Shown here: positions 7,302 to 53,959 of the stretch, piece by piece
Layout of the letters: each line of letters begins with the position of its first letter
How positions within the stretch are numbered: position 1 is the stretch's first letter
Origin: Shinella lacus
Lineage (GTDB): Bacteria; Pseudomonadota; Alphaproteobacteria; Rhizobiales; Rhizobiaceae
Direction of reading: 5' to 3'
Assembly (NCBI RefSeq): GCF_010994755.1
Contig: NZ_WHSB02000003.1
Span: 186,001 to 250,000, forward strand
DNA length: 64,000 bases
Made by a program: the position numbers and the translations under genes
The notes under the pieces: model-generated
Told to the model about the DNA's origin: nothing
Seen by the model: only the letters and a program-made list of their open reading frames with translations
The model's database searches: none

Positions 7302-8303
7302 ATGACAAACCTTCCCGTGACATTGGCCGATATCGAACAGGCTGCCCGGCGCATCGAGGGCCGCATCCTGCGCACGCCCTTCGTGCTGTCGGCATCGCTT
7401 TCCGAACGCTGCGGCGTGCCGGTGGGCCTCAAGCTCGAACACCACCAGACGACCGGCAGCTTCAAGCTGCGGGGCGCGACCAATGCGGTGCTTTCGCTTT
7501 CGCCGGAGGAGCGCGCGAGGGGCGTCGTTGCCGCCTCCACGGGCAATCATGGCCGCGCGCTTGCCCACGCCGCCAAGGCCGAGGGCTCGGTCGCGACGAT
7601 CTGCATGTCCCGGCTGGTGCCGGAAAACAAGGTGGCGGAAATCCGCCGACTCGGCGCGAGTGTCCGCATCGTCGGCCGGTCGCAGGACGAGGCACAGGTC
7701 GAGGTGGACAGGCTGATGGCGGAAGACGGTCTCGTCATGGTGCCGCCCTTCGACAATCCAGCCGTGGTGGCGGGGCAGGGCACGCTTGGCCTGGAGATCG
7801 TCGAGGCCATGCCGGATGTCGCCACCGTGCTCGTGCCACTCTCGGGCGGGGGGCTTGCCGCGGGTGTCGCTGCCGCGGTGAAGGGGCGCTTGCCGAAGGC
7901 GCGCGTCATCGGCCTCACCATGCAGCGCGGCGCGGCGATGAAGGCGAGCCTTGATGCGGGGCGGCCGGTGCAGGTCGAGGAGGTGGCAAGCCTTGCGGAT
8001 TCGCTCGGCGGCGGCATCGGGCTCGACAATGCGGTGACCTTCCGCATGTGCCGCGACCTGCTCGACGAGGTGGTCCTGCTTTCCGAAGCCGAGATCGCGG
8101 CCGGCATGCGGCATGCCTATACGCAAGAACGCGAGGTGATCGAAGGGGGGGCTGCGGTCGGCATCGCGGCGTTGCTTTCCGGCCGCCTCGGCAAACTCGA
8201 CGGCCCCGTGGCCGTCATCTTTTCCGGCCGCAACGTCGACATGGGCCTGCACCAGCGGGTCATCAACGGCGAGGCCGATCCGTTTGCGGAGGACGCGGCG
8301 TGA
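7302..8303 (+). CDS. eutB: Hydroxyectoine utilisation dehydratase EutB (threonine dehydratase-like)
   Basis: A 333-residue fold-type II PLP enzyme of the threonine/serine dehydratase family. The PLP lysine is K55 in TTGSFKLRGA, the ASTGNHGRALA phosphate loop follows, and a glycine-rich SGGGLAAG motif lies near residue 184. EutB is thought to dehydrate a hydroxylated diaminobutyrate-like intermediate from hydroxyectoine. It lacks the C-terminal regulatory domain of biosynthetic threonine deaminases, as expected for a catabolic enzyme. The end overlaps the eutC start. Confidence 0.9.
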   Translation: MTNLPVTLADIEQAARRIEGRILRTPFVLSASLSERCGVPVGLKLEHHQTTGSFKLRGATNAVLSLSPEERARGVVAASTGNHGRALAHAAKAEGSVATICMSRLVPENKVAEIRRLGASVRIVGRSQDEAQVEVDRLMAEDGLVMVPPFDNPAVVAGQGTLGLEIVEAMPDVATVLVPLSGGGLAAGVAAAVKGRLPKARVIGLTMQRGAAMKASLDAGRPVQVEEVASLADSLGGGIGLDNAVTFRMCRDLLDEVVLLSEAEIAAGMRHAYTQEREVIEGGAAVGIAALLSGRLGKLDGPVAVIFSGRNVDMGLHQRVINGEADPFAEDAA

Positions 8304-9292
8304 CGAAGATGAAGATACTGACAGAAGCGGACCTGCGCCGTATCGTCCCGCTCGACCTGGAGGCGATCGCCTGCGTGGAGGAAGCGTTCCACGCGCTCGC
8401 CACCAAGGCCGTCGTCATGCCGCCGATCCTGCGGCTCGACATGCCGGAGCAGCGCGCGGAGGTGGACGTGAAGACCGCCTATGTGCCCGGCCTCGATGGT
8501 TTTGCCATCAAGATCAGCCCCGGCTTCTTCGACAATCCGAAGATCGGCCTGCCGAGCACAAACGGCCTGATGGTGCTGTTTTCGACGAAGACCGGCCTCG
8601 TACAGGCCGTGCTGCTCGACAACGGCTACCTGACGGATGTGCGCACGGCCGCCGCCGGTGCCGTGGTGGCGCGATACCTTTCGCGCACCGATGCTTCGGT
8701 CGCCGCCATTTTCGGCGCCGGCATGCAGGCAAAGCTGCAACTGGAGGCGCTGAGCCTGGTGCGCCCTATCCGCGAAGCCCGCATCTGGGCGCGTGATGCG
8801 GCGAAGGCAGAGGCAGTTGCGGCGGAGTTGACGCTGAAGCTCGGCTTCCCCGTCCGTGCGGAGACCGATGGCCGGACGGCGGTCGATGGGGCCGACATCA
8901 TCGTCACCACCACGCCCTCCGAAACGCCGATCCTTAAGGCGGAATGGCTCCAGCCGGGCCAGCATATCACCGCCATGGGCTCCGATGCCGAGCACAAGAA
9001 CGAGATCGAGCCGGCGGTGATCACCGGTGCCGCGCTCTATGTCGCCGACAGCCTGAAACAGACGCGCCGGCTCGGCGAGTTGCACCATGCCATCGAGGCG
9101 GGGCTTGTCACCGAAGGCACCACCTTCCCCGAACTCGGCGAGATCATCGCCGGGCGCAAACCGGGCCGCAGCGGCCCCGAGCAGATCACCGTGGCGGATC
9201 TCACCGGCACGGGCATCCAGGACACGGCCATCGCAACGCTTGCCGCCGCCCGCGCGGCTGCGGCGGGTGCGGGCACGACTTTCGAGAGTTGA
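8300..9292 (+). CDS. eutC: Ectoine utilisation protein EutC (ornithine cyclodeaminase/mu-crystallin family)
   Basis: A 330-residue NAD(P)-binding protein of the ornithine cyclodeaminase, alanine dehydrogenase and mu-crystallin family. The N-terminal substrate lobe contains KISPGFFDNP, and a Rossmann domain has GAGMQAKLQLEAL near residue 138. I prefer the GTG start at 8300, which overlaps the eutB stop (GTGA) and has GGAGG six bases upstream; an ATG at 8309 is the alternative. EutC is proposed to act after EutB on hydroxyectoine-derived intermediates. Confidence 0.88.
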   Translation: MTKMKILTEADLRRIVPLDLEAIACVEEAFHALATKAVVMPPILRLDMPEQRAEVDVKTAYVPGLDGFAIKISPGFFDNPKIGLPSTNGLMVLFSTKTGLVQAVLLDNGYLTDVRTAAAGAVVARYLSRTDASVAAIFGAGMQAKLQLEALSLVRPIREARIWARDAAKAEAVAAELTLKLGFPVRAETDGRTAVDGADIIVTTTPSETPILKAEWLQPGQHITAMGSDAEHKNEIEPAVITGAALYVADSLKQTRRLGELHHAIEAGLVTEGTTFPELGEIIAGRKPGRSGPEQITVADLTGTGIQDTAIATLAAARAAAAGAGTTFES

Positions 9293-9326
9293 GACCGGCT
9301 TTTCGCCGGGTATAGAGGAAACACCG

Positions 9327-10508
9327 ATGAAACAAGCGAACCTGAAGTTCTCACTTCCGGAGTATGAAGCACGTCTTCAAAAGACGCGGAAGGCCATGGA
9401 GGCCAAGGGCATCGACGTGCTGATCTGCAGCGATCCGTCGAACATGAACTGGCTGACGGGCTATGACGGCTGGTCCTTCTATGTGCACCAGTGCGTCGTC
9501 GTGCCGCCGACGGGCGAGCCGATCTGGTATGGCCGTGGGCAGGATGCCCCCGGCGCGAAGTTCACCGCCTATCTCAAACACGAGAACATCATCGGTTATC
9601 CAGACCACTACGTGCAGTCCACCGAGCGCCACCCGCTGGATTACCTCTCGGCCAAGCTCACCGAACGCGGCCTCGACAAGCTGACGATCGGCGTCGAGAT
9701 GGACAATTACTGGTTTTCCGCGGCCGCCTTCGCCTCGCTTACAAAGCACCTGCCGAATGCCCGCTTCGTCGATGCCACCGCACTCGTCAACTGGCAGCGC
9801 GCGGTGAAAAGCGAGACGGAAATCAAGTACATGCGCAATGCCGCGCGCATCGTCGAAGCCATGCACCAGCGCATCTTCGACAAGATCGAGGTCGGCATGC
9901 GCAAATGCGACCTGGTGGCCGAGATCTACGATGCCGGCACGCGCGGCGTCGATGGCATCGGCGGCGATTATCCGGCGATCGTGCCGCTGCTGCCATCGGG
10001 CGTCGAAGCCTCCGCGCCGCATCTCACCTGGGACGACCGGCCGATGAAATCCGGCGAGGGCACCTTCTTCGAGATCGCCGGCTGCTACCATCGCTACCAT
10101 GTGCCGCTGTCGCGCACCGTCTTCCTCGGCAAGCCGACGCAGGCCTTCATCGATGCGGAAAAGGCGACGCTCGAAGGCATGGACGCGGGCCTTGCCGTCG
10201 CCAAGCCCGGCAATACCTGCGAGGACATCGCCAACGCCTTCTTCGGCGTGCTGAAGAAGTACGGCATCGTGAAGGACAACCGCACGGGCTACGGCATCGG
10301 CGTCTCCTATCCGCCGGACTGGGGCGAGCGCACGATGAGTCTGCGCCCCGGCGACAGGAGCGAGCTCAAGCCCGGCATGACCTTCCATTTCATGACCGGC
10401 CTCTGGCTGGAAGACATGGGCTTCGAGACGACGGAAAGCATCCTCATCACCGAAACCGGCGTCGAGTGCCTGGCCAATGTGCCGCGCAAGCTTCTCGTGA
10501 AGGACTGA
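9327..10508 (+). CDS. doeA: Ectoine hydrolase (M24 peptidase fold)
   Basis: A 393-residue M24-family protein with an N-terminal creatinase-like domain (about 1-160) and a C-terminal pita-bread domain (about 170-393). It opens the ectoine ring to N-acetyl-diaminobutyrate isomers and is also called EutD. Its motifs (FFEIAGCYHRYHVPLSRT and TGYGIGVSYPPDWGE) match the ectoine hydrolase subgroup rather than metal-dependent aminopeptidases. The start follows AGAGGAAAC. It is adjacent to doeB; EutD and EutE of related bacteria are reported to form a hydrolase-deacetylase complex. Confidence 0.93.
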   Translation: MKQANLKFSLPEYEARLQKTRKAMEAKGIDVLICSDPSNMNWLTGYDGWSFYVHQCVVVPPTGEPIWYGRGQDAPGAKFTAYLKHENIIGYPDHYVQSTERHPLDYLSAKLTERGLDKLTIGVEMDNYWFSAAAFASLTKHLPNARFVDATALVNWQRAVKSETEIKYMRNAARIVEAMHQRIFDKIEVGMRKCDLVAEIYDAGTRGVDGIGGDYPAIVPLLPSGVEASAPHLTWDDRPMKSGEGTFFEIAGCYHRYHVPLSRTVFLGKPTQAFIDAEKATLEGMDAGLAVAKPGNTCEDIANAFFGVLKKYGIVKDNRTGYGIGVSYPPDWGERTMSLRPGDRSELKPGMTFHFMTGLWLEDMGFETTESILITETGVECLANVPRKLLVKD

Positions 10509-10511
10509 GCC

Positions 10512-11504
10512 ATGCGTGCCTCTCCCATCAGCCCCACGGTCGATTTTTCGGCCGAGGGCGTGCAGCACGGCTTTCTGCGCCTGCCCTACAGCCGGGACGA
10601 TTCCGCCTGGGGCTCGGTGATGATCCCGGTAACGGTGGTGAAGAACGGGGAGGGGCCGACGGCCCTTCTCACCGGCGGCAACCACGGCGACGAGTACGAA
10701 GGCCCGATCGCGCTCTTCGATCTTGCGCGCACGCTGAAGGCCGAGGATGTTTCCGGCCGCGTCATCATCGTTCCGGCGATGAACTATCCGGCCTTCCTTG
10801 CCGGTACGCGCACCTCGCCGATCGACAAGGGCAATATGAACCGCAGCTTTCCGGGCGCTCCGGATGGCACGGTCACGCCGAAGATCGCCGATTATTTCCA
10901 GCGCATGCTGCTGCCGCTCGCCGATATCGTGCTCGACTTCCATTCCGGCGGCAAGACGCTGGATTTCCTGCCCTTCTGCGCCGCGCATATCCTGCCGGAC
11001 AAGGCGCAGGAGGCAAAAGCCTTCGCCCTCGTCAGCGCCTTCGGCGCGCCCTGGTCGATGAAGATGCTGGAGATCGACGCGGTCGGCATGTACGACACGG
11101 CGGCCGAGGAGATGGGCAAGGTCTTCATCACCACCGAACTCGGCGGTGGCGGCACGGCGACGGCGAGAAGCGCCGGCATTGCCAAGACCGGCGTTGCGAA
11201 CGTGCTGAAGGCGGCTGGGATCCTGAAGGGCTCGGTCGAAGCCACGGACACGACCTGGCTCGACATGCCGGACGGCAATTGTTTCTCCTTCGCCGAAGAC
11301 GGAGGCCTCATCGAGCCGCTCTACGATCTCGGTAACCGGGTGAAGAATGGCGACGTCGTCGCCCGCATCTACCCGGTCGGGCGCACGGGCGTGGCCCCTG
11401 TGGAGGTGAAGGCGAAGATGGACGGCATTCTCGCCGCCCGCCACTTCCCCGGCCTCGTCAAATCCGGCGACTGCGTCAGCGTGCTGGCTGATATCGTCGA
11501 CTGA
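10512..11504 (+). CDS. doeB: N-alpha-acetyl-L-2,4-diaminobutyrate deacetylase
   Basis: A 330-residue zinc deacetylase of the AstE/AspA (succinylglutamate desuccinylase) family, also called EutE. Zinc ligands are visible as H58 and E61 in GGNHGDEYEG and H144 in DFHSGG, with a probable catalytic glutamate in TTELGGGG. It removes acetate from the DoeA product to give diaminobutyrate, itself an inducer ligand for EnuR-type regulators. The gene starts 3 bp after doeA and ends 3 bp from the convergent aminotransferase gene. Confidence 0.93.
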   Translation: MRASPISPTVDFSAEGVQHGFLRLPYSRDDSAWGSVMIPVTVVKNGEGPTALLTGGNHGDEYEGPIALFDLARTLKAEDVSGRVIIVPAMNYPAFLAGTRTSPIDKGNMNRSFPGAPDGTVTPKIADYFQRMLLPLADIVLDFHSGGKTLDFLPFCAAHILPDKAQEAKAFALVSAFGAPWSMKMLEIDAVGMYDTAAEEMGKVFITTELGGGGTATARSAGIAKTGVANVLKAAGILKGSVEATDTTWLDMPDGNCFSFAEDGGLIEPLYDLGNRVKNGDVVARIYPVGRTGVAPVEVKAKMDGILAARHFPGLVKSGDCVSVLADIVD

Positions 11505-11507
11505 TGG

Positions 11508-12821
11508 CTACCAGCCGGCAAATTCTGCGAGAAGGCTTTCGTCGACGCGCCCTGCCGCGACGTCGGCGAGCGCCTGGTCGAGCATAGCGACGCCCTCCTG
11601 TGCCTGGTTTTCCGTAAGCGTCAGGGGCGGGGTGAATTCCAGCACGTTGGAGCGGACCCCGACATAGTAGAGCACGAGGCCGAGCTGGAAGGCACGGTAG
11701 ACGGTGAGCGCCGTCTGCCGCGCGGCCGGCTCGCGGCTCACGCGGTCGGTGACGAGCTCGACGCCGAGCGCGAGGCCTCGGCCGCGTACATTTCCGATGA
11801 GGGAATGGCGGGCGGCGAGGCGGTAGAGAGCCTCGCGCAGCACATGGCCTGTCCTTTCAGCATTCTGCACGAGATGATCGCGCTCGATCGTCTGCAACAC
11901 GGCGAGCGCCGCGGCCGCGCAGACCGGGTTTCCATGCACCGTTTGCAGTGAGAAGGCGACGGCGTGGTTCATGATGGCTTCCGGGCCGACCACCGCCGAG
12001 ATCGGCAGGCCGCCGCCAAGGCCCTTGCCGAAGACGACGATATCCGGCTCGATATCGGAATGTTCGAAGGCGTTGAAGCGGCCGCTGCGGCCGAGGCCCA
12101 CCTTCACCTCGTCCGAGACGAGCAGGATGCCATGTTTGCGGCAGAGCGTTTCCACCGCCTTGAAGTAGCCGTCCGGCGGCACCAGCATGCCGCCGTCCGA
12201 CTGGATCGGCTCGATGAAGAAGGCGGCAACCTCTTGCGGCGGCACCTCCGTCGCAAAAAGCTTTTCGAGATGGGCGAGGGCGGCGTCCTTTGCGGCGTCG
12301 GGGCTGCCGGCGGCGTAGCTGTTCGGGTAGGGCACGAGCGTAAGGCCCTCGGCCCGTGCGCCCTGCTGCGCCGGGTGGCCGGAAACCGCCATCGAGCCGA
12401 CGGTGCCGCCGTGATAGGCGCCGCTGAAGGCGAGGATGCGCGGCCGGCCGGTGGCGACCACCACCATGCGGGCAACCGTCTCATTGGCGTCCGAGCCGGA
12501 ATGGCCGAACCAGACGCGGCCACGGGCACGCTCGGGCACCAGCGAGAGCAGCTTTTCGGCCAGCAGCACGCAGGGTTCGTTGGCGGTTGAGAGGTAGCTC
12601 GCGCCCGCCTGGTCGGAGAGCGCGCGGTTGACGGCCTCGCGGATGGCGGGGTGCGAATGGCCGAGGCTTGCCGCACCCCAGGAGGCGGCGAAGTCGAGAA
12701 GCTGCCGCCCGTCGTCGCCCGTCAGATAGGCGCCGCTGCCGCCGACGACCGCCTGCGGAAAGAACCGCAGATGCGCCATGGTGGAGACGGATCGGCTTTC
12801 GCGGGCATAGAGACCGGACAT
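11508..12821 (-). CDS. Class III PLP aminotransferase (candidate diaminobutyrate transaminase)
   Basis: A 437-residue class III (aspartate aminotransferase family, acetylornithine/GABA transaminase-like) enzyme. K266 in GKGLGGGLPIS is the PLP lysine, SDEVKVGLGRSG carries the PLP-ring aspartate, and TVHGNPVC is typical of the class. Ectoine clusters often include such an enzyme (DoeD, atf) to turn diaminobutyrate into aspartate semialdehyde, the substrate for Ssd. Here it is convergent to doeB and lies 15 bp downstream of a minus-strand operon, so it may instead serve that pathway. The start follows GAGGAAAC. Confidence 0.88.
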   Translation of the reverse strand: MSGLYARESRSVSTMAHLRFFPQAVVGGSGAYLTGDDGRQLLDFAASWGAASLGHSHPAIREAVNRALSDQAGASYLSTANEPCVLLAEKLLSLVPERARGRVWFGHSGSDANETVARMVVVATGRPRILAFSGAYHGGTVGSMAVSGHPAQQGARAEGLTLVPYPNSYAAGSPDAAKDAALAHLEKLFATEVPPQEVAAFFIEPIQSDGGMLVPPDGYFKAVETLCRKHGILLVSDEVKVGLGRSGRFNAFEHSDIEPDIVVFGKGLGGGLPISAVVGPEAIMNHAVAFSLQTVHGNPVCAAAALAVLQTIERDHLVQNAERTGHVLREALYRLAARHSLIGNVRGRGLALGVELVTDRVSREPAARQTALTVYRAFQLGLVLYYVGVRSNVLEFTPPLTLTENQAQEGVAMLDQALADVAAGRVDESLLAEFAGW

Positions 12822-12836
12822 GGCGCGTTTCCTCGT

Positions 12837-13505
12837 TTATTTGAAGAAGGTGATGACCTCGTCGAGCTGGACGACATGGCAGTAGATCATGTTGATGATC
12901 TCCAGCTCCCGCTTGTGCAGCTCGTCCGTCGCCGCCGCACCGCAATCATCGACGACCACCACGCCGAAGCTTTCGTCGGCGAGGCTGCGCACGGTCGAGG
13001 AGACGCACTGGTCGGTGAAGATGCCGCAGCAGATGACGTCCTTGATGCCCATATTGTGCAGGATGAGGCGCAGGTTCGTGCCGGTCAGCGCGCTGTCGGT
13101 CGTCTTGGTGATGACGATCTCGTCCGGGCGCGGCTCCAGCTCGGGCACGACCTGGCCTTCCGGCAATTCCTTCGGCAGCAACAGGTAGTTGAAGCCCGGC
13201 TTCTTCTGGCTCAGCGACCGGTCGCGGCCATCCGGCTTCTGGCAGGCGATGCGCGCGTAGATGACCTCCACCTTGCGCTTGCGGCATTCGTCGATCAGCC
13301 GCGCGGTGTTGGGGATCACCGTTCCGCGCATGCGGTCGTAGAAGGGCTGCCAGCGGGCGGTTTCCTCCGGCGTGTCCTTCGGGTCGAGATAGGTGTTCTG
13401 GATGTCGATGACGAGCAGCGCGGTCGTTTCCGGGTCGAGCACGATGTCGTCCGGCTCGTCGGCGTTCGCGTAGTAGAAGGAGCGGTAGGCGGTCTTCCAG
13501 GTCAT
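12837..13505 (-). CDS. Isochorismatase-family cysteine hydrolase (paralogue 1)
   Basis: A 222-residue isochorismatase-fold hydrolase with an intact Asp-Lys-Cys triad: D34 in LLVIDIQN, K134 in ITKTTDSA and C167 in GIFTDQCVSS. Family members hydrolyse amides, ureides and related C-N bonds (N-carbamoylsarcosine, biuret, nicotinamide) or isochorismate; the substrate here cannot be told. The start overlaps the livM stop by 4 bp, so it is cotranscribed with the importer. A paralogue lies at 18223-18873, at the other end of the same importer genes. Confidence 0.88.
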   Translation of the reverse strand: MTWKTAYRSFYYANADEPDDIVLDPETTALLVIDIQNTYLDPKDTPEETARWQPFYDRMRGTVIPNTARLIDECRKRKVEVIYARIACQKPDGRDRSLSQKKPGFNYLLLPKELPEGQVVPELEPRPDEIVITKTTDSALTGTNLRLILHNMGIKDVICCGIFTDQCVSSTVRSLADESFGVVVVDDCGAAATDELHKRELEIINMIYCHVVQLDEVITFFK

Positions 13506-14530
13506 GGGGCGGGTTCCTTCTTGCGGCGGGCGCGGGTGAGGATGTGGCCGATCTCGCGGTTGGGGAAGAGACCGCCGGGTTTCAGGATCATCACGGCGAT
13601 CATGGCGAGCGCCAGCACGATTTCGGTAAGGCCGATGACCTGGCCGGCGCCGAAGGAGGTGGCGTTGAGCGCGCCCTCGGTGCTGCGCAGGCCCTCATAG
13701 GCGACGGTGATCAGCACCGTGCCAGCGACAGCGCCGGTGACCGTGTTGGCGCCGCCGATCACCAGCATGGTGATGATCAGGAAGGTTTCCTTGAGATAGA
13801 AGGCTTTTGGCGCAAAGGAGGTGATGAAGTGGCCCCAGAGTGCGCCGCCGATGCCGGCTATGAAGGCAGCGAGGATGAAGGCGCGCCAGCGCAGATGGGG
13901 GATATTGGCGCCGAGGGCTGCGGCCGCCACTTCGTCCTCGCGCGAGGCGCGCAAAAGCTTGCCGGTGCGCGATTCCTTGAAGAGCAGGGCCACGATGACG
14001 ACGATGCCGGCGACGATGGCGGCGATCGGCATGTCCGTGGTCTTCGGCAGGCCGAAGAGTGTGCGCGGCCCGTTGGTGAAGGCGCTCCAGTTGTTCATGA
14101 CCGTGTAGAGCACGACGAGCAGCGCGAAGGAGGTGATGACCGACGCCGCATCCGAAAGCCGCATCAAGGGGTAGGCGACGACGGCCGCCACCGCCGCCGC
14201 CAGCACACCGGCTGCCAGCATGGCAAGCAGCGGCGAGACTTCCACGATCTTCATGAACTCGTAGAGATCCGGCAGCGCCATGCCCTTCATCTGTGCCGGA
14301 ATGGTGAGCACGGCGGAGGTATAGGCACCGAGCCCCATGAAGCCGATATGGGCGAAGGACAGCAGGCCGGAATTGCCCATGAAGGTCTGCAGGCCGACGA
14401 CGAGCACCAGCGAAATCAAGAGGTTGGTGGCGATGCGGTCATAGAGGCGGATGCCGAGAAGCTGGCTGCCGACGCCGATGACGAGGATGACGGCGATGAG
14501 GATGAGGGCGGTGAGATAGGAATGTTTCAT
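13502..14530 (-). CDS. Branched-chain-amino-acid-type ABC permease (LivM family)
   Basis: A 342-residue LivM-family inner-membrane permease with about nine hydrophobic segments, GNSGLLSFAHIGFMGLGAY early on, and a cytoplasmic coupling loop with RASREDEVAAAALG. It forms the pore with the LivH-type gene upstream. The Liv-type family transports many substrates besides branched-chain amino acids, including urea and amides, so the substrate is not implied. It has a charged C-terminal tail (RARRKKEPAP). Confidence 0.9.
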   Translation of the reverse strand: MKHSYLTALILIAVILVIGVGSQLLGIRLYDRIATNLLISLVLVVGLQTFMGNSGLLSFAHIGFMGLGAYTSAVLTIPAQMKGMALPDLYEFMKIVEVSPLLAMLAAGVLAAAVAAVVAYPLMRLSDAASVITSFALLVVLYTVMNNWSAFTNGPRTLFGLPKTTDMPIAAIVAGIVVIVALLFKESRTGKLLRASREDEVAAAALGANIPHLRWRAFILAAFIAGIGGALWGHFITSFAPKAFYLKETFLIITMLVIGGANTVTGAVAGTVLITVAYEGLRSTEGALNATSFGAGQVIGLTEIVLALAMIAVMILKPGGLFPNREIGHILTRARRKKEPAP

Positions 14531-14542
14531 GGGTTCCGCTCC

Positions 14543-15433
14543 TCAGGTCCGCTGGCCGCTTGCCGGACCCTTGATGAGGCCTTGCGGGCGCCAGAGCAGG
14601 ATCAGGATGACGAGGCTGAAGGTGAAGGCGTCGCGGAATTTCAGGAGATCCTGCGACAGGGTGTAGTTGAGCGTCGTATCGATCAGCGCCAGCAGGAAGC
14701 CGCCGACGACCGCGCCCGGTAGGCTGCGCATGCCGCCGATCACGGTGGCGATGAAGGCGACGAGCAGCGGTTCGAGGCCGACGCCCGGCACGACCGTGCC
14801 GATACGGCCGATCCAGAGAATGCCGACGACGCCGGCCAGGAAGCCGGACAGCGCGAAGGCCGACGAAATGATGAGGTTTGCCGGCACGCCCAGCATGCGC
14901 GCCATGGTGAAGTTCGTCGCCGCCGCGCGCATGGCGATGCCGAGCGTCGTCTTGCGCATCAGGAAGGCGACGGCGGCGAGAAGCACGATGGAGGCGGCGA
15001 TGGTGATGAGGTTGCGTACCGGCGTGATCGCGCCGCCGATCGTGACGGTCTGCGAGAAGATTTCCGGCAGCGGCACGTTGCGCGGGCGCGGTGAGATGAA
15101 GAGCAGGGCCGCGTTCTGCAACAGGTTGGAGAAGGCGAAGGAGGTGATCAGCACCGCCGTTACCGACTTGGCGCGCACCGGCCGGAAGGCGACGTAGTCG
15201 GTGAGGATGCCGAAGACGATCGCCATGACAACGGCGAGCAGCGCCATGATGATCCACGGCAGGCCGGAGCCGCTGGCGAGGAACATGGTGTAGCCGGCGA
15301 CCATGATGAGTTCGCCATAGGCGAAATTCACCAGCCGCAGGATGCCGTAGACGATGACGAGGCCGAGCGCCATCAGCGCGTAAGCGCCGCCAAGGCTGAG
15401 CACATCGATGGTGAACTGGATCGCGAAAGCCAT
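14543..15433 (-). CDS. Branched-chain-amino-acid-type ABC permease (LivH family)
   Basis: A 296-residue LivH-family permease with eight or so transmembrane segments. The conserved GLVIVYGILRLVNFAYGE region lies near the N-terminus and IATVIGGMRSLPGAVVGGFLLALI near the C-terminus. It is followed after 12 bp by the LivM-type gene. Together with the LivG and LivF ATPases and the binding protein at 16926-18098 it makes a complete five-part importer. Confidence 0.9.
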   Translation of the reverse strand: MAFAIQFTIDVLSLGGAYALMALGLVIVYGILRLVNFAYGELIMVAGYTMFLASGSGLPWIIMALLAVVMAIVFGILTDYVAFRPVRAKSVTAVLITSFAFSNLLQNAALLFISPRPRNVPLPEIFSQTVTIGGAITPVRNLITIAASIVLLAAVAFLMRKTTLGIAMRAAATNFTMARMLGVPANLIISSAFALSGFLAGVVGILWIGRIGTVVPGVGLEPLLVAFIATVIGGMRSLPGAVVGGFLLALIDTTLNYTLSQDLLKFRDAFTFSLVILILLWRPQGLIKGPASGQRT

Positions 15434-45993: not shown

Positions 45994-46656
45994 CTACGCC
46001 TGTTCCGAGGCCCGCTCCAGCGCCTTCAGCATCGTGCGTTCGGCGAGGTTGAGATAGGTCTCCATCTGCGCCGCCGCCTCATGCGGCTTGTTCGTCTCGA
46101 CCAGCGTCGTGATGGCGTCGTTCATGTCGACGAAGGGGGAATGCAGGTGTTCCGGGTCGTTCAGGAGCCCGAAGCACAGGCGCAGTTCGGCTGCGATGCG
46201 CTCATAGAATTCGTTGAGCCGCACGCTGTCGGAGAGGTCGATGATGGCGGCGTGGAACGTCATGTTGGCGCTGCCGACGCCGATCCAGTTTGCCTGGTCG
46301 CGCTCTAGCCGCGCCATGGTCACGGCCTCGCGCATGACGCGGATGGCCGGGTGCTGCTGCCAAGCCTGGCGCAGCGCGCCACATTCCAGCATGCGCCGCA
46401 CGCGGTAGATATCGATGATCGACGCCATGGAGGGCACCGCGACGAAGACGCCGCGATTGGCCTCGTGGCGCAGCAGCCCATCCTTGGTGAGCAGGCGGAA
46501 GGCTTCGCGCAGCGAGTTGCGCGAGACGTCGAAACGCTCGCTGAAGGCGGCCTCCGACAGGCGCTGGCCGGGCGCAAGCTCGCCCGAGATCAGCAGCGTG
46601 CGAATGCGCCGCGCCAGTCGATCCGCAAGCGGCAGGCCATCTCCGTCGTCCGTCAT
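45994..46656 (-). CDS. GntR-family (FCD) regulator of the 5-oxoprolinase cluster
   Basis: A 220-residue GntR regulator: winged helix at about 10-75 (LSEAAFSERFDVSRNSLREAFRLLTKDGLL in parts) and an all-helical FCD effector domain whose metal ligands are suggested by MTFHAAI and HSPFVDMND. FCD regulators respond to small carboxylates or amino acids. It is divergent from the NRAMP-pxp operon, with a palindromic site in the shared promoter region, so it probably represses that operon in the absence of its substrate. Confidence 0.9.
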   Translation of the reverse strand: MTDDGDGLPLADRLARRIRTLLISGELAPGQRLSEAAFSERFDVSRNSLREAFRLLTKDGLLRHEANRGVFVAVPSMASIIDIYRVRRMLECGALRQAWQQHPAIRVMREAVTMARLERDQANWIGVGSANMTFHAAIIDLSDSVRLNEFYERIAAELRLCFGLLNDPEHLHSPFVDMNDAITTLVETNKPHEAAAQMETYLNLAERTMLKALERASEQA

Positions 46657-46802: not shown

Positions 46803-46825
46803 AATATTGTTGAACAATATTGACA
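46803..46825. promoter_or_regulatory. GntR-type operator overlapping a -35 box
   Basis: AATATTGTT-G-AACAATATT (46803-46821) is a perfect 9-bp inverted repeat with one central base. Its last two bases begin TTGACA (46820-46825), a consensus -35 box for the NRAMP-pxp operon. The core TTGTTGAACAA resembles FadR-subfamily sites. Binding there would block RNA polymerase directly. Confidence 0.75.
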
Positions 46826-46897: not shown

Positions 46898-48160
46898 ATG
46901 GAACAGAGTTCAGCTGTGCCTGCCGGCCAGGGTGTGGTCGCGCAAGGCATTCATACGGTGAAATCCCGTCGGTCGGCGCTCGTCGCCGCAATCTTCCTGA
47001 TGGCGACATCCGCCATCGGCCCGGGCTTCATCACCCAGACGGCGACCTTTACCACCAAGCTGGGTGCCGCCTTCGCCTTCGGCATTCTTGCCTCGATCCT
47101 CATCGACTTCGTCGTGCAGCTCAATATCTGGCGCATCGTCACCCTGACGCGCATGCGCGCCTCCGATGTCGCCAATGCCGCCATTCCCGGTTCCGGCCAT
47201 CTGCTGGCCGTGCTCGTCATCGTGGGCGGGCTGTTCTTCAACATCGGCAATATCGGCGGCACGGGCCTCGGCCTCAACGCCATCTTCGGCCTCGATCCGA
47301 AGATCGGCGGCGCCATCAGTGCCGTTTTCTCGATCGGCATCTTCCTGTCGAAGCGCGCCGGGCTTGCCGTCGACCGCTTCATCATCTTCGCCGGCATCCT
47401 GATGATCGTGTTGACGCTCTACGTCGCCTTCGTCTCCGGCCCGCCCGTCGGTGACGCCCTGTTCCAGACGGTCCTGCCGGACACGATCGATTTTGCCACC
47501 ATCACGACGATCGTCGGCGGTACGGTCGGCGGCTATATTACCTATTCCGGTGCGCATCGTCTGCTCGACCGCGGGATGGTCGGCGTCGAGAACCTGCCCG
47601 CCGTCAACCGCGCGGCACTGACCGGCATCACCGTCACCGGCCTGATGCGCTACGTGCTGTTCCTCGCCATCCTCGGCGTTGTTGCCAGCGGCGTTGTCAT
47701 CGATACGTCCGGCCAGGGCGCAAACCCTGCCGCGCAGGCCTTCCAGGCGGCAGCCGGCAATGTCGGCCTGCGTCTCTTCGGCATCATCTTCTGGGCTGCG
47801 GCCATCACCAGCGTCATCGGTGCGGCCTATACGTCGGTCTCTTTCATCACCGCCTTCAAGCAGGACATCAGCGAACATGCCCGCAACATGGCAACGGTGG
47901 TCTTCATCGCCATCTCGCTCGTCTGCTACCTGCTGATGACGACTCCGCCGGCCGCGATGCTGGTCTTCGTCGGCGGCCTCAATGGCCTCATCCTGCCGAT
48001 CGGCCTTTCCATCTTCCTCTTCGCCGCCTGGAAGCGCGAAGACCTAATGGGCGGCTATCGTTACCCGCGCTGGCTGCTGGCCCTCGGCGTCCTGGTCTGC
48101 GCGCTGACATGGTATATGGGCTACAAGTCGGCCGGCACGATCTTCAGCCTGCTCGGTTAA
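46898..48160 (+). CDS. NRAMP-like transporter of the 5-oxoprolinase cluster (YcsG-type)
   Basis: A 420-residue membrane protein with about eleven transmembrane segments in the NRAMP/APC superfamily. [16 protein letters not shown] occupies the place of the metal-binding TM1 motif DPGN of true NRAMPs and lacks the Asp and Asn ligands. It is therefore probably not a metal transporter; Bacillus YcsG holds the same place next to pxp genes. Import of 5-oxoproline or a related compound is the inferred role. The start follows GCGGAG. Confidence 0.85.
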
Positions 48161-48173
48161 AGGGAGAAAGACC

Positions 48174-48941
48174 ATGGTAGCGATCGATCTCAACAGTGAT
48201 CTCGGCGAAAGCTATGGCGCCTGGCGCATGGGCGACGACGCCGCCATGCTCTCCGTCGTCTCCTCGGCCAACATTGCCTGCGGTTTCCACGCCGGCGACC
48301 CGGCCGGCATCTACCGCACGGTGAAGGCGGCGGCGGACAACGGCGTCGTCATCGGCGCCCATGTCTCCTATCCGGACCGCGTCGGCTTCGGCCGGCGTGA
48401 CCTGGATGCGACCTCGGAAGAACTGATCGCTGACGTGATCTACCAGATCGGCGCGCTGAAGGGCGTCGCCGCAGCGGCCGGAGCGACAGTGCGCTACGTC
48501 AAGCCGCACGGCGCGCTCTACAACCGCATCGCCCATGACGCCAAGCAGGGCCAGGCGGTGATCGACGGCATCAAGGCGATCGATCCGTCGCTCGTCCTGA
48601 TGGGCCTTGCCAATGCGCCGATCCTCGATCTCGCGCGCCGGGCGGGCCTTGCCGTCGTCGCCGAAGCCTTCGCCGACCGGGCCTATACGCCGAAGGGCGA
48701 GCTCGTCTCCCGCCGCGAGGCCGGTGCCGTGCTGCACGATGAGCAAAAAATCGCCGACCGCATGGTGCAGCTCGCCCGCGAAGGCACGCTGGAGGCGATC
48801 GACGGCAGCGTCATCCGTGTCGAGGCGCAGTCGATCTGCGTGCATGGCGACAGCCCCGGCGCGGTCGCCATCGCGCAAGAAATCCGCCGTCGTTTCGAGG
48901 CGGAAGGCATCGCCATCCGCTCCTTCGCCGACAAGAGCTGA
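48174..48941 (+). CDS. pxpA: 5-oxoprolinase subunit A (LamB/YcsF family)
   Basis: A 255-residue LamB/YcsF protein with the family opening [14 protein letters not shown], the [12 protein letters not shown] motif, GAHVSYPD and VKPHGALYN. In Bacillus and Pseudomonas PxpA works with PxpB and PxpC to hydrolyse 5-oxoproline to glutamate using ATP. The start has GGGAGAAAG upstream, and it follows the transporter gene by 13 bp. Confidence 0.92.
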
Positions 48942-48950
48942 GGCGCGGCC

Positions 48951-49760
48951 ATGACGATCCCCACAGCCTATCTCAACCACACAGATGCCACAGCCGCCCG
49001 CGATGCGCGAAAAACCTATCGTGACGGCCGCATCGAACCGACCTCCGGAGTGGCGCCCGGCTTCACGCAGGCCAACATGATCGTGTTGCCGCGCGACTGG
49101 GCCTTCGATTTCCTGCTCTACGCGCAGCGCAATCCCAAACCGTGCCCGGTTCTGGATGTTTCCGACCCGGGCGCGCCAACCACGCTGCTGGCGCCTGATG
49201 CGGACCTGCGCACCGACCTGCCGCTCTATCGCATTTGGCGGGACGGCAAGCTTGTCGAAGAGACGCCCGACGCGACTGCGGCCTGGGCGGAGCGCGACGA
49301 CCTCGTCGCCTTCCTGATCGGTTGCTCCTTCACCTTCGAGACGCCGATGGTGGAGGCGGGTATCGAGATCCGGCATATGACGGACAAGAGCAACGTGCCG
49401 ATGTACCTCACCAACAAGGCCTGCCGCCCCGCCGGGCGCCTCAAGGGCAATATGGTCGTCTCCATGCGGCCGATCCCGGCCGCGCGGGTGGCGGATGCGG
49501 CAACGATTTCCGGCCGTTTCCCGGCGGTACACGGCGCGCCGGTACATGTCGGGGCACCCGAAGAGATCGGCATTACCGATCTCGCTAAACCGGATTTCGG
49601 CGACGCGGTGCGCATCGAACCTGGTGAAGTGCCGGTGTTCTGGGCGTGCGGCGTCACCCCGCAGGCGGCCGTGATGGCCTCCGGCGTTCCCTTCGCCATC
49701 ACGCATGCTCCCGGCTACATGTTCATCACCGATATCCCCGATTCCGCCTATCATGCGTGA
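48951..49760 (+). CDS. DUF1445 (YcsI-type) putative hydro-lyase
   Basis: A 269-residue DUF1445 protein, which resembles part of mitochondrial D-glutamate cyclase and Bacillus YcsI. Motifs include [20 protein letters not shown] and [15 protein letters not shown]-glutamate cyclase interconverts D-glutamate and 5-oxo-D-proline, so a link to 5-oxoproline metabolism in this operon is reasonable. The gene lies 9 bp after pxpA and 6 bp before the pxpBC fusion. Confidence 0.87.
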
Positions 49761-49766
49761 GGGTTC

Positions 49767-51362
49767 ATGCGCTTTCTTCCCGTCAGCCTGACCACCATCC
49801 TCGTCGAGCTCGCCGATCTCGACGAGACGCTCGCCCTCTTCGCCTCGCTTCAGGCGGAGCCCGTCGCCGGCATCGCGGAAATGGTGCCGGCCGCCCGCAC
49901 GCTGATGATCCGCTTCCACCCGGAAAAGGTCTCCGACGCGGAACTCGCGGCGCGCATCGGCACGCGTGACCTTTCGGCGAGGATTGCGCCCTCCGAGCAC
50001 CTGGTCGAAATCCCGGTGCTTTATGACGGCGAAGACCTGGCCGACGTGGCGGAGCTTACCGGCCTTAGCATCGACGAGGTCATCCGCCGCCACACCGAAA
50101 GCGAATTCACGGTCGCCTTTTGCGGCTTTGCGCCCGGCTTCGGCTATCTCGTCGGCGGCGATCCGGCCTTGCATGTGCCGCGCCGCAAGAGCCCGCGCAC
50201 CCGTATTCCCGCCGGCTCCGTGGCAATCGCCGGTGCCTTCAGCGGCGTCTACCCGCAGGCAAGCCCCGGCGGCTGGCAGATCATCGGCACGACGCCGGTC
50301 AAAATGTGGGACATCGACCGCGATCCGGGCGCACTGTTCCAGCCCGGCTACCGCGTCCGCTTCTTCGACCTCGAAAAATCGGGCAAGACGGTCAGTATTC
50401 CCGCATCTGCGCCGCGTGCGGAGCGCTCCGTCGCCGCGAATGCACCGCAATTCAAGGTGCTCGCAGCCCCCATGCCGGCGCTGTTCCAGGACCTCGGCCG
50501 CTTCGGCCAGACGGGGCAGGGCGTTTCCGCCTCCGGCGCGCTCGACCGCGGCGCCTTCAATGCCGTAAACCGCATCGTCGGCAATCCGGCAAACACGCCG
50601 GCCCTCGAACTCACCCTCGGCGGCTTCTCCTTCGAGAGCAATGTTCGTGCGGTGATCGGCCTAGCCGGCGCGCCATGTCCCGTGACGGTGCGTGATGCTT
50701 CCGGCCGCGAAAACCAGTTCGAGATCCACCAGCCGATCTCGCTGGAGCCGGGTGACATCGTGACGGTCGGCCATCCCCGCAAGGGCATGCGATCCTACCT
50801 CGCCGTGCGCGGCGGCTTCGATGTCGCGCCGGTTCTCGGCAGTGCGGCGACCGACACGCTGGCGGTGGTCGGCCCCGAGCCGGTGACGGCCGGGACCGTA
50901 CTCGTGTTGAAAGACCGCAAGGACGGGCTCAAGAGCGTTACCATCGATGAAAACCCCGCCTTCAACCTACCCTCTGCCGGCGACGTGGTGACGCTTGACG
51001 TGGTGCTTGGCCCGCGCACGGACTGGTTCACGCAGAAGGGCATCGAGACGCTGACGGGCCAGCTCTGGCAGGTGACGCCGCAGTCGAGTCGCGTCGGCAT
51101 TCGCCTTGCCGGCGATACCCCGCTGGAGCGCAAGGACAGCGCCGAACTGCCGAGCGAGGGCACGGCGACCGGAGCCATCCAGGTGCCGCATAGCGGCCAG
51201 CCGGTGCTGTTCCTCGCCGACCATCCGCTGACCGGCGGTTATCCCGTTATCGGCGCGGTGGCCGAATATCATCTGGATCTCGCCGGCCAGATTCCCATCA
51301 ACGCCAAGATCCGCTTCCGCCCGATCGGCCCCTTCGCCGATATCGCGAACCGCCAGGAGTAA
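49767..51362 (+). CDS. Fused 5-oxoprolinase subunits B and C (KipI-KipA fusion)
   Basis: A 531-residue fusion. Residues about 1-215 are PxpB/KipI-like (cyclophilin-type, with [13 protein letters not shown] and [18 protein letters not shown]). Residues about 225-525 are PxpC/KipA-like, starting [18 protein letters not shown] and ending in [14 protein letters not shown]. In Bacillus these are separate genes. The same two domains (AHS1 and AHS2) form the carboxyltransferase part of urea carboxylase, which matters because the next gene is a biotin carboxylase. No linker break or frameshift is seen. Confidence 0.9.
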
Positions 51363-51366
51363 CGCC

Positions 51367-53088
51367 ATGAAGAAAGTGCTGATTGCCAATCGTGGCGAAA
51401 TCGCCGTGCGCATCCTGCGCGCCTGCCGCGACCATGGCCTCCAGTCGGTCGCCGTCTATGCCGATCCGGATGCCGACGCGCTCTTCGTGCGCCTCGCCGA
51501 CGAGGCTTATGGGCTCGGCGGTGTGCGCCCGGCGGAAACCTATCTCGACATCGAAAAGCTGATCGCCGTCGCCAAGCGCGCCGGCGCCGATGCCGTGCAT
51601 CCGGGTTACGGTTTCCTCTCCGAGCGGGCAGAATTCGCCAAGGCGGTGCAGGATGCCGGTCTCACCTGGATCGGGCCGGACCCGCATGTGATCGAGGCGC
51701 TCGGCGATAAGGTCGAGGCGCGGCGCATTGCACAGAACGTTGGTGCCCCGCTTGTTGCCGGCAGTGATGGCCCGGTTTCCTCCGCGGCGGAAGTCGTCGC
51801 CTTTGCGAAAGAACACGGCCTGCCGGTCGCCATCAAGGCCGCCTATGGCGGCGGCGGGCGCGGCATCAAGGTCGCCTGGAAGATGGAGGAGGTCGCCGAC
51901 CTCTACGAATCCGCCGTGCGCGAGGCGACTGCCGCCTTCGGCCGCGGCGAATGTTTCCTCGAACGTTTCCTCGACCGGCCGCGCCATATCGAGGCGCAGG
52001 TCATCGCCGACAAACACGGCAATGTGCTCGTGCTCGGCACCCGCGACTGCTCGGCGCAGCGCCGCAACCAGAAACTCATCGAAGAGGCGCCGGCGCCCTT
52101 CCTGACGCCGGAACAGCGCCAGAAGATCCACGATGCGGCCAAGGCGATCTGCGCCGCCGCCGGCTATTCCGGTGCCGGCACGGTCGAATTCCTGCTTGGC
52201 GTCGATGGCACGATCTCCTTCCTGGAGGTCAATACCCGCCTCCAGGTCGAGCACCCAGTCACCGAAGAGACCACCGGCATCGACCTCGTCATCGAGCAGT
52301 TCCGCATCGCCGAGGGTGAGCCGCTGCGCATGTTGGAAACGCCGACCCCTCGCGGCCATTCCATCGAGTTTCGTATCAACGCGGAAGACCCGGGCCGCGG
52401 CTTCCTGCCGACACCGGGCACGATCACCACCTTCGATCCGCCGTCGGGTCCGGGCGTGCGCGTGGATAGCGGAGTCGTCAGCGGTTCCAGCATCCCGGGC
52501 GTCTTCGACTCGCTGATAGCCAAGCTGATCGTTACCGGTGCGACGCGCGATGAGGCCTTGCGCCGCGCCCGCCGGGCGCTGAAGGAATTCCGCATCGAGG
52601 GCGTGGCGACGGTGCTGCCGTTCCACCGCGCGGCGATCGACACCGCGGATTTCATCGGCACCGACGGTTTCAAGGTGCATACCCGCTGGATCGAGACCGA
52701 TTTCGCCGCCATGCCGGACGCCGTGGTGCGGCCGGAACCGGCAAGCGATCCGTCGCTGATCCGCACCCACCTGGAAATCGACGGCAAACGCGTCGCGCTG
52801 GCGCTGCCGAGCCTGTTGCTCGCGGGCTTCGGCACGGCCGGCCAGGGCGTGGCCACTGCCGGCAGCAAGCCGGTCGAGGATGGCATCGCCGCCCCGGTTT
52901 CCGGCACGCTGCAGAGCTTCAAGATCGCCGATGGCGCGAGTGTTGCCGAAGGCGAGCTGGTGGCGGTGATGGAGGCGATGAAGATGGAAACGCAGGTTCT
53001 CGCCCCGAAGGCCGGAAAACTGCGCCTCCGCGTCAAGGAAGGCGATTACTTGCAAGCCGGCGACACGCTGATGGTGTTCGAAGGCTGA
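51367..53088 (+). CDS. Biotin carboxylase fused to biotin carrier domain
   Basis: A 573-residue fusion: biotin carboxylase N-terminal domain (about 1-110), ATP-grasp (about 115-315, with the glycine-rich [12 protein letters not shown] and [20 protein letters not shown]), carboxylase C-terminal domain (about 335-440) and a biotinyl domain whose K539 in MEAMKMET is the biotinylation site. No carboxyltransferase subunit of the acetyl-CoA or propionyl-CoA type is encoded nearby. Its place 4 bp after the PxpB-PxpC fusion suggests that this pair forms one enzyme. Confidence 0.92.
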
Positions 53089-53107: not shown

Positions 53108-53126
53108 CCCGGATCAATAATCCGGG
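53108..53126. terminator. Short hairpin between convergent operons
   Basis: CCCGGAT-CAATA-ATCCGGG, a perfect 7-bp stem overlapping the bicupin stop codon, between the biotin carboxylase gene and the convergent operon. No T-run; possible bidirectional terminator. Confidence 0.4.
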
Positions 53127-53959
53127 GCGGTGCCGAAGACGAATTCGCAGGGCGTGTGCGCCATGTTGAAATACTGGTGGTCGAAGCCGGCGGGGATGTA
53201 GAAGCCGTCGCGCGGGTTGAGCTCGAACCAGGCCTGGCCCTCGGCATCGGGAATGTGGATGTTGAGCACGCCGGAGACGACATAGAGGCATTCGTCGCCC
53301 TTGTGACGCTCGATGCGCGTGCGCTTGCCGCCGAGCACCGTCGTCTTGCCGACGGTCAGCTGGTCCGTCGCGCAGTAGAAGCCGGTATAGGCGCCCTGCG
53401 TCTCCGCATCGAGGCTCCAGAGCATGTCGCCATCGCGCTTCGGGTGGATGGTGCGAGCCTCGCGCTGCGCCTCCGCCGCCATCGGCCAGCGGCCCAGAAA
53501 CTCCTGCTGGATATAGCGGTTTTCGGAGAGCAGCGGCTTGGTGCGGGCATAGGGGCCGGAGGTGCCCTTGGCCGGCGGCGGCGCGAAGAATTCCAGCACG
53601 CGCACCTGCTCCTCGCCAAGGTTGAAGCCGTGGTGCCAGGTGTCCTTGCGGAAGAACAGCGCCTCGCCCTGCTTGGCAATGCAGACCTCGCCGGTTTCGG
53701 GATTGGCAAGGCCCAGCGTGCCGCTGATCACATAGAGCAGTTCATCCGCGCCAAAAATCGTGCGGAAGGCGTCGGTGTGCTTGAAGCAGCCGCCGGGCTG
53801 CATGCCGAAGACGATCTGGTGGATGTTTTCCGTGGACGCATAGATCCAGTCGTCGACGAGGCCGGCATTCTCCTCGCCCCACAGATGGCGCGTGACGCCG
53901 GCATAGGGAATGTGGCTCGGCCGGTCGAAGACGGGACGGGGGGAAGGCTTGTAGCCCAT
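53114..53959 (-). CDS. Bicupin domain protein
   Basis: A 281-residue protein with two cupin domains. The first is at about 45-130 (GGCFKHTDAFRTIFGADELLYVISG, KDTWHHG) and the second at about 195-275 (KRTRIERHKGDECLYVVSG, PAGFDHQYF), both with histidine and glutamate metal-ligand positions. The size and symmetry suggest a soluble isomerase, epimerase or dioxygenase acting on a small sugar acid or similar compound. It is the last gene of the minus-strand sugar operon, 16 bp after the TetR gene. Function unknown. Confidence 0.82.
   Translation of the reverse strand: MGYKPSPRPVFDRPSHIPYAGVTRHLWGEENAGLVDDWIYASTENIHQIVFGMQPGGCFKHTDAFRTIFGADELLYVISGTLGLANPETGEVCIAKQGEALFFRKDTWHHGFNLGEEQVRVLEFFAPPPAKGTSGPYARTKPLLSENRYIQQEFLGRWPMAAEAQREARTIHPKRDGDMLWSLDAETQGAYTGFYCATDQLTVGKTTVLGGKRTRIERHKGDECLYVVSGVLNIHIPDAEGQAWFELNPRDGFYIPAGFDHQYFNMAHTPCEFVFGTAPDY

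Follow-up and report, generated by a model that had tools for sequence, protein, structure and literature searches.

A probable 5-oxoproline operon of Shinella lacus in which a PxpB-PxpC fusion adjoins an AccA3-type biotin carboxylase

Corynebacterium glutamicum grows on 5-oxoproline with pxpTABC, genes which are repressed by the regulator PxpR via agATTGTTCAACAATct, and PxpR itself binds 5-oxoproline with a KD of 726 nM (PMC13274462). In that text, the use of ATP by PxpABC on 5-oxoproline is put as an assumption and the word 'carboxylase' is absent (PMC13274462). In the urea amidolyase of K. lactis, K1605 most likely acts as the general base when the carboxyl group is transferred (PMC5770610). 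The neighbourhood considered here is, as such, already present in annotation, namely as adjacent gene pairs homologous to both halves of the urea-carboxylase carboxyltransferase (PMC3199775) and as PA0493-PA0496 of P. aeruginosa, an operon that encodes a homologue of biotin carboxylase together with an AccB-like protein of unknown function (PMC6249292). In mycobacteria, acyl-CoA carboxylases use AccA3 (PMC11001197), and MSMEG_0435 and MSMEG_0436 are up 2.40-fold and 2.17-fold, respectively, under nitrogen limitation (PMC4617892). No report of a biotin-dependent 5-oxoprolinase was found in the open-licence literature.

Layout of the operon and its operator

The window, i.e., the whole 64-kb stretch of Shinella lacus DNA that was analysed, contains a divergent gene set in the order GntR, then NRAMP-pxpA-DUF1445-pxpBC-BC. 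The GntR/FCD regulator, a PxpR-like candidate (45994..46656, minus strand; Pfam GntR 7.4e-16, FCD 6.3e-15), is oriented away from the operon, which starts on the plus strand with an NRAMP-family transporter, PxpT/YcsG-like by family (46898..48160; Pfam Nramp 3e-19), and continues with pxpA (LamB/YcsF; 48174..48941; NF003814 377 bits vs. a cut-off of 226) and a DUF1445/D-glutamate cyclase family gene, a 'putative hydro-lyase' (48951..49760; PF07286 7e-67; NF003969 415 bits vs. a cut-off of 324). Next on the same strand lie the pxpB-pxpC fusion of 531 residues (49767..51362; Pfam CT_C_D 1-190, CT_A_B 252-519) and, 4 bp further on, an AccA3-type biotin carboxylase (BC) joined to its carrier protein (BCCP), with 573 residues in total (51367..53088; Biotin_carb_N, CPSase_L_D2, Biotin_carb_C, Biotin_lipoyl 509-570) and the biotinyl lysine K539 within EAMKME. 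A first-pass annotation of the DNA had read the fusion, the spacing, the carrier lysine and the operon mates pxpA, DUF1445 and a transporter in this way, and open reading frames, domains and motif agree with it, the three mates all lying upstream of pxpBC on the same strand. A double-cupin protein gene (53114-53959) converges on the operon end and has a tblastn match in just three of the 80 relatives described below. DUF1445, which Pfam names D-glutamate cyclase, may tie D-glutamate or 5-oxo-D-proline to the pathway, and it accompanies pxpBC in 67 of these 80 loci.

The domains of PxpA, PxpB and PxpC are thus all encoded in one operon, and the fusion stays below the curated NCBIfam equivalog cut-offs of both PxpB and PxpC (TIGR00370 140.9 vs. 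145.55; NF045499 170.7 vs. 500). The closest named loci are from Shinella, with PxpBC identities of up to 89%. An AF2 model of the fusion has a mean pLDDT of 87.8, and Foldseek with this model ranked the fused TTHA0988 best over the whole length, with 3mml, 5dud, 5i8i and 9yx5 also found. With the PxpABC systems of C. glutamicum and B. subtilis, which include PxpT/YcsG and PxpR, the window shares PxpA, PxpB, PxpC and an NRAMP-family transporter, and with the PxpR system of C. glutamicum additionally the divergent GntR regulator and the operator core; it differs from both in its fused PxpB-PxpC and its dedicated BC-BCCP.

The operator core is part of a 17-bp palindrome, ATATTGTTGAACAATAT (46804..46820), whose central base is the sole imperfection. 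The core ATTGTTNAACAAT at 46806-46818 in the GntR/NRAMP gap, read as ATTGTTGAACAAT, is the C. glutamicum PxpR operator core on the other strand with 0 mismatches, and it is the only match at up to one mismatch in the 64 kb, where 0.06 would be expected. Among 91 loci surveyed, 83 had a divergent GntR gene and a measurable gap; two overlong gaps were skipped and 81 were tested. All 81 gaps lie within two mismatches of the core (44 exact, 32 with one, five with two), compared with 0.3% of Markov-resampled gaps at up to one mismatch; a good number of the loci are closely related, and the exact ones include Xenorhabdus, Proteus, four genomes of the phylum sample and Arthrobacter. Outside the GntR gaps, the 80 loci gave two matches within one mismatch, about 100 bp before NRAMP and with no adjacent GntR match (L027, L069), and among 35 control loci of the biotin-free type, four had a match within one mismatch. 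On the other side of the balance, no operator match was seen in the clade members L189, L234 and L235, which also had no GntR/NRAMP match in the stretch examined, nor in the other biotin loci L134, L187, L191 and L193 or in L079/L080. A TTGT-ACAA core is common among FCD regulators, and the operator therefore supports rather than proves control by 5-oxoproline. It stands together with a PxpT-type transporter, assigned by family alone. The genome also holds five Hydantoinase_B matches, so that another 5-oxoproline route is possible.

Recurrence of the pairing and kinship to a mycobacterial pair

The relatives were taken from a genome scan, in which 80 of 170 confirmed loci were kept. In 78 of these 80, a BC lies directly downstream of pxpBC, the exceptions being two Gammaproteobacteria MAGs (L079, L080), whose genomes (completeness not stated) show three BCs each with 48-50% identity, none of them in the window-type clade. 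BC and carrier share a single frame in 77 of the 78 loci (L048 stops at a contig end), and the EAMKME motif is retained in 76 of the 77 carriers read. Among the same 80, tblastn found GntR in 74, NRAMP in 71 and DUF1445 in 67, some loci being cut short. A phylum sample of 299 genomes gave a PxpBC match in 102, from which 30 loci were fetched: a BC is present in all 12 loci of the window's PxpBC clade, window included, and among the remaining 18 it was found in G179 and not in the other 17 within the stretch fetched. In widened stretches around the 35 biotin-free-type loci, some ended by contig ends, a BC occurred once (L220). There, in a member of the Rhizobiaceae, BCCP-BC-pxpA lie on the opposite strand (12217-15020), 2.5-5 kb from a biotin-free-type pxpB-pxpC; this BC adjoins another pxpA and may represent a further biotin-Pxp arrangement. 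A chance neighbourhood was rejected on these counts of BC-carrier genes beside pxpBC, which the first-pass annotation had proposed: the pairing is seen in 78 of the 80 relatives and all 12 clade loci, and it recurs in several clades of the tree.

The gene set also occurs in other taxa and on plasmids. pxpBC with BC-BCCP was read in plasmid records of Rhizobium, Klebsiella, Paracoccus, Pantoea and Bartonella, and by tblastn only in those of Acinetobacter and the actinobacterium Arthrobacter; these plasmid loci were hand-chosen from ranked lists and are non-random, and other phyla are represented by plasmid records only. Records of Deinococcus, E. coli and P. oryzihabitans contain pxp genes and no BC within the stretch. 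In L129, an ABC transporter precedes the operon in place of GntR-NRAMP. Lactiplantibacillus and Limosilactobacillus encode pxpB, pxpC, BCCP, BC, pxpA and NRAMP as separate genes, and in Moraxella and G179 the set is present in a different order. The Lactobacillaceae and Moraxella sets resemble the window in PxpA, BC, BCCP, NRAMP and a PxpBC of the Arg type (see below), but differ in their separate genes, their order and their AccC-like BC, and the PxpR core was not found there. A close relative of the window's BC is present in 95 Klebsiella plasmid records (E up to 1e-140), so that the module may move with enterobacterial plasmids; L130 is the one record in which the entire operon was read. 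On this plasmid (1-1383 and 7584-9329), a second BC-carrier match lies close to the pxp operon in the opposite orientation; its BC has 70% identity over ~350 residues, and an IS1 transposase gene starts ~55 bp beyond it. Phages yielded nothing for a query of 30 residues, which is without bearing on the question.

The phylogenetic placement comes from a quickly built tree with 85 rows of concatenated PxpB and PxpC, which carried warnings of long branches and odd composition and includes four of 11 type II and two of three urea-carboxylase rows, with L155 (the L220 locus) and MSMEG unlabelled. In this tree, the PxpBC-type pair MSMEG_0435-0436, whose deposited structure includes AccA3, forms the sister group of the window's clade (joint set starred 100; clade 99), which stands apart from the biotin-free Pxp rows and within which the BC-less MAGs L079/L080 branch first. 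The BC label requires four changes on the tree, at least three of them forced by starred branches. Arg-type pxpBC adjoins BCs in three tree clades, of the AccA3 type in one and AccC-like in the others, and in a BC tree (51 rows, no AccA3 row) the window-type BCs form one clade (100*) and those of Lactobacillaceae and Moraxella/G179 fall among the AccC-like ones. A working link between pxpBC and BC can be argued because different carboxylases adjoin pxpBC in separate clades.

When scored by itself, the BC domain of the window reaches 684 bits with AccA3 vs. 472 with the next family, and the AccA3 sequence used (30hu_A3a) is identical with a chain of PDB 9yx5. For the PxpC and PxpB parts, the nearest PDB entries by sequence are MSMEG_0435-0436 (in 9yx5) and 3mml, and those for BC-BCCP include 5mlk, which we take to be AccA3 of M. 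tuberculosis. Kinship thus extends to both partners of one assembly, as 9yx5 combines the closest PDB sequence relatives of both window proteins under the title 'Structure of the long chain acyl-CoA carboxylase complex from Mycobacterium smegmatis with MSMEG_0435-MSMEG_0436 bound'. In M. smegmatis, the biotin subunit belongs to an acyl-CoA carboxylase complex, whereas in the window it is encoded beside pxpBC; this comparison is based on the title of the entry, and MSMEG_0435-0436 could be bound there in another role.

Active-site letters and carboxyltransferases

With the urea carboxylase of K. lactis (3va7/5i8i), the window shares the BC, CT_A_B, CT_C_D and BCCP domains, but distributes them over two chains, has Arg for the general-base Lys, and encodes PxpA and no amidase-type allophanate hydrolase in its operon. 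Residues were mapped by sequence alignment, with K1605 located by counting along it: K1605 and the next Tyr correspond to R139 and R140 in the window, a Tyr to W170 and an Asp to S463. The K1605 column reads Lys-Tyr in all three urea carboxylases and in 11 of 11 Lys-type kipI-kipA loci, nine of which have a BC in the stretch (not L125 and L133). Arg stands there in all 34 rows of the clade to which the window belongs (its own row counted), in both members of the BC-less pair, in 35 of 35 biotin-free-type rows and in MSMEG, and a separate alignment gave Arg for the window and all 80 kept relatives. W170 and S463 split the sets likewise; each has a single exception in the biotin-free type, which in one of the two cases is a gap. 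At these positions the window enzyme therefore has letters of the 5-oxoprolinase type. As to domain content, the earlier description of the locus as the parts list of a urea-carboxylase-like enzyme is right; it fails for the active-site letters, R139, R140, W170 and S463 being as in biotin-free Pxp. Membership in urea carboxylase itself was rejected on the two chains, which reach 510 and 156.5 bits vs. the TIGR02712 cut-off of 1303.85, and on the Lys-to-Arg change.

The Arg-type letters common to biotin-free Pxp also bear on a different explanation, according to which PxpA and PxpBC form an ordinary ATP-dependent 5-oxoprolinase that works without biotin, and BC-BCCP binds PxpBC for regulation or for the sensing of bicarbonate or energy. 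This explanation, which we consider rather unlikely, would also fit L079/L080, which have neither a BC beside pxpBC nor an AccA3-type BC in their genomes (MAGs), and the title of 9yx5, in which the pair is 'bound' to an acyl-CoA carboxylase complex; it is at odds with the retention of EAMKME in nearly all carriers read and with the recurrence of the neighbourhood in several clades with different BCs. The PxpC letters R348, P370, R417, W420, H486 and P487 of the window's clade are common to MSMEG_0435 and mostly not to type I; as the BC-less L079/L080 carry them too, they are no sign of a biotin partner. These letters, shared as they are by L079/L080, and the DUF1445 gene present in 67 of the 80 loci would suit a second alternative, in which the substrate that PxpBC and BC-BCCP carboxylate is a different small amide or lactam (e.g., 5-oxo-D-proline or a glutamine-derived compound linked to DUF1445) and not 5-oxo-L-proline; as the PxpR operator core and the NRAMP-family transporter point to 5-oxoproline, this is improbable.

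The first-pass annotation had also stated that no separate carboxyltransferase is encoded nearby, and the operon indeed contains no PF01039 protein; five PF01039 matches lie elsewhere in the genome, which has seven BCs in total. Three BCs (C1, C13, C40) have a PF01039 protein within ~6 kb, one BC is AccC, with AccA and AccD as the remaining two PF01039 proteins, and one BC in a 1169-residue frame is taken as pyruvate carboxylase. This frame aside, only the BCs of the window and of C45 are without a PF01039 partner, and both adjoin CT_A_B/CT_C_D. The possible objection of a cognate carboxyltransferase elsewhere thus applies only in part: such proteins exist, but three of the five lie near a BC of their own and two are AccA/AccD. 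Membership in the acyl-CoA carboxylases was rejected on this distribution and on the missing PF01039 partner in the operon. The same distribution weighs against BC-BCCP being a co-transcribed alpha subunit of an acyl-CoA carboxylase with its beta subunit encoded elsewhere, as does the finding that this alpha type adjoins pxpBC across many genera in the Pseudomonadota loci read. AccA3 does serve mycobacterial acyl-CoA carboxylases (PMC11001197), and AccA3-type genes occur without pxp in the stretch on two Streptomyces plasmids (polyketide-type clusters) and one Rhodococcus plasmid, so that the AccA3 type as such is not pxp-specific; we nevertheless regard the alpha-subunit explanation as very improbable.

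The C45 cluster of the same genome (L095, G000:C45:15000-34500, 7647-11916) has the order pxpA-BCCP(84 aa)-BC-kipI-kipA, followed by a Peripla_BP_4 substrate-binding protein and, ~2.7 kb on, a BPD_transp_2 permease. It unites the same domains in one cluster as the window operon, but consists of separate genes, keeps the urea-carboxylase KY and GGY letters and has a BC that is AccC-like in the tree. Judged by these letters, it is a better candidate than the window for a classical biotin carboxylase of an amide. The P. aeruginosa operon PA0493-PA0496 is presumably of the same kind.

A possible biotin-dependent opening of 5-oxoproline

Taken together, the locus is likely to be an operon for 5-oxoproline to which the biotin carboxylase is linked in function. 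The kinship to 9yx5, the operator core and the presence of BCs beside Arg-type pxpBC in three clades make 5-oxoproline the probable substrate and indicate that the biotin protein is a real partner of PxpBC. The fullest reading, to which we give a little less than even weight, is that of a PxpR-type-controlled operon for the uptake and degradation of 5-oxoproline, in which PxpBC forms a complex with a dedicated AccA3-type BC-carrier and the lactam is opened by a carboxylation route. Gene order, conservation, the operator match and the kinship of PxpBC to the mycobacterial pair are observed; the substrate, the complex in Shinella and, above all, carboxyl transfer to the lactam are what we infer, and carboxylation is plausible. 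That biotin carboxylates the lactam is possible, at a confidence equal to or somewhat lower than that of the reading as a whole. Biotin-dependent opening of a lactam had already been suggested from the window, and the recurrent partner, the lack of a nearby carboxyltransferase and the 5-oxoproline-type operator and transporter are in its favour; what it loses is the support of urea-carboxylase letters.

In the most likely mechanism for this reading, the BC would charge its biotin using ATP and bicarbonate, and the carrier would deliver carboxybiotin to PxpBC. At its site, 5-oxoproline or a closely similar lactam would be activated, probably by N-carboxylation. The ring would then be opened by PxpA, and the resulting carbamate would lose CO2 to give glutamate. 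In a specific and more tentative form of this proposal, a biotin-dependent lactamase, carboxybiotin would N-carboxylate 5-oxoproline on the Arg-type PxpBC site and PxpA would open the N-carboxylactam. If true, this would give the biotin enzymes a new acceptor and a carboxyltransferase site of a new kind, recruited independently in several lineages.

For operons with a BC of their own, this proposal offers a concrete, testable chemistry for ring opening, driven by carboxylation, and it provides a likely role for biotin carboxylases without an acyl-CoA partner in their operon. It also suggests a reason for the presence of a PxpBC-type pair on the mycobacterial AccA3 complex. More generally, an operon of a soil bacterium that includes its own BC suggests that some bacteria drive the ring opening of 5-oxoproline with biotin, although the active site looks unlike that of the known biotin enzyme which it resembles.
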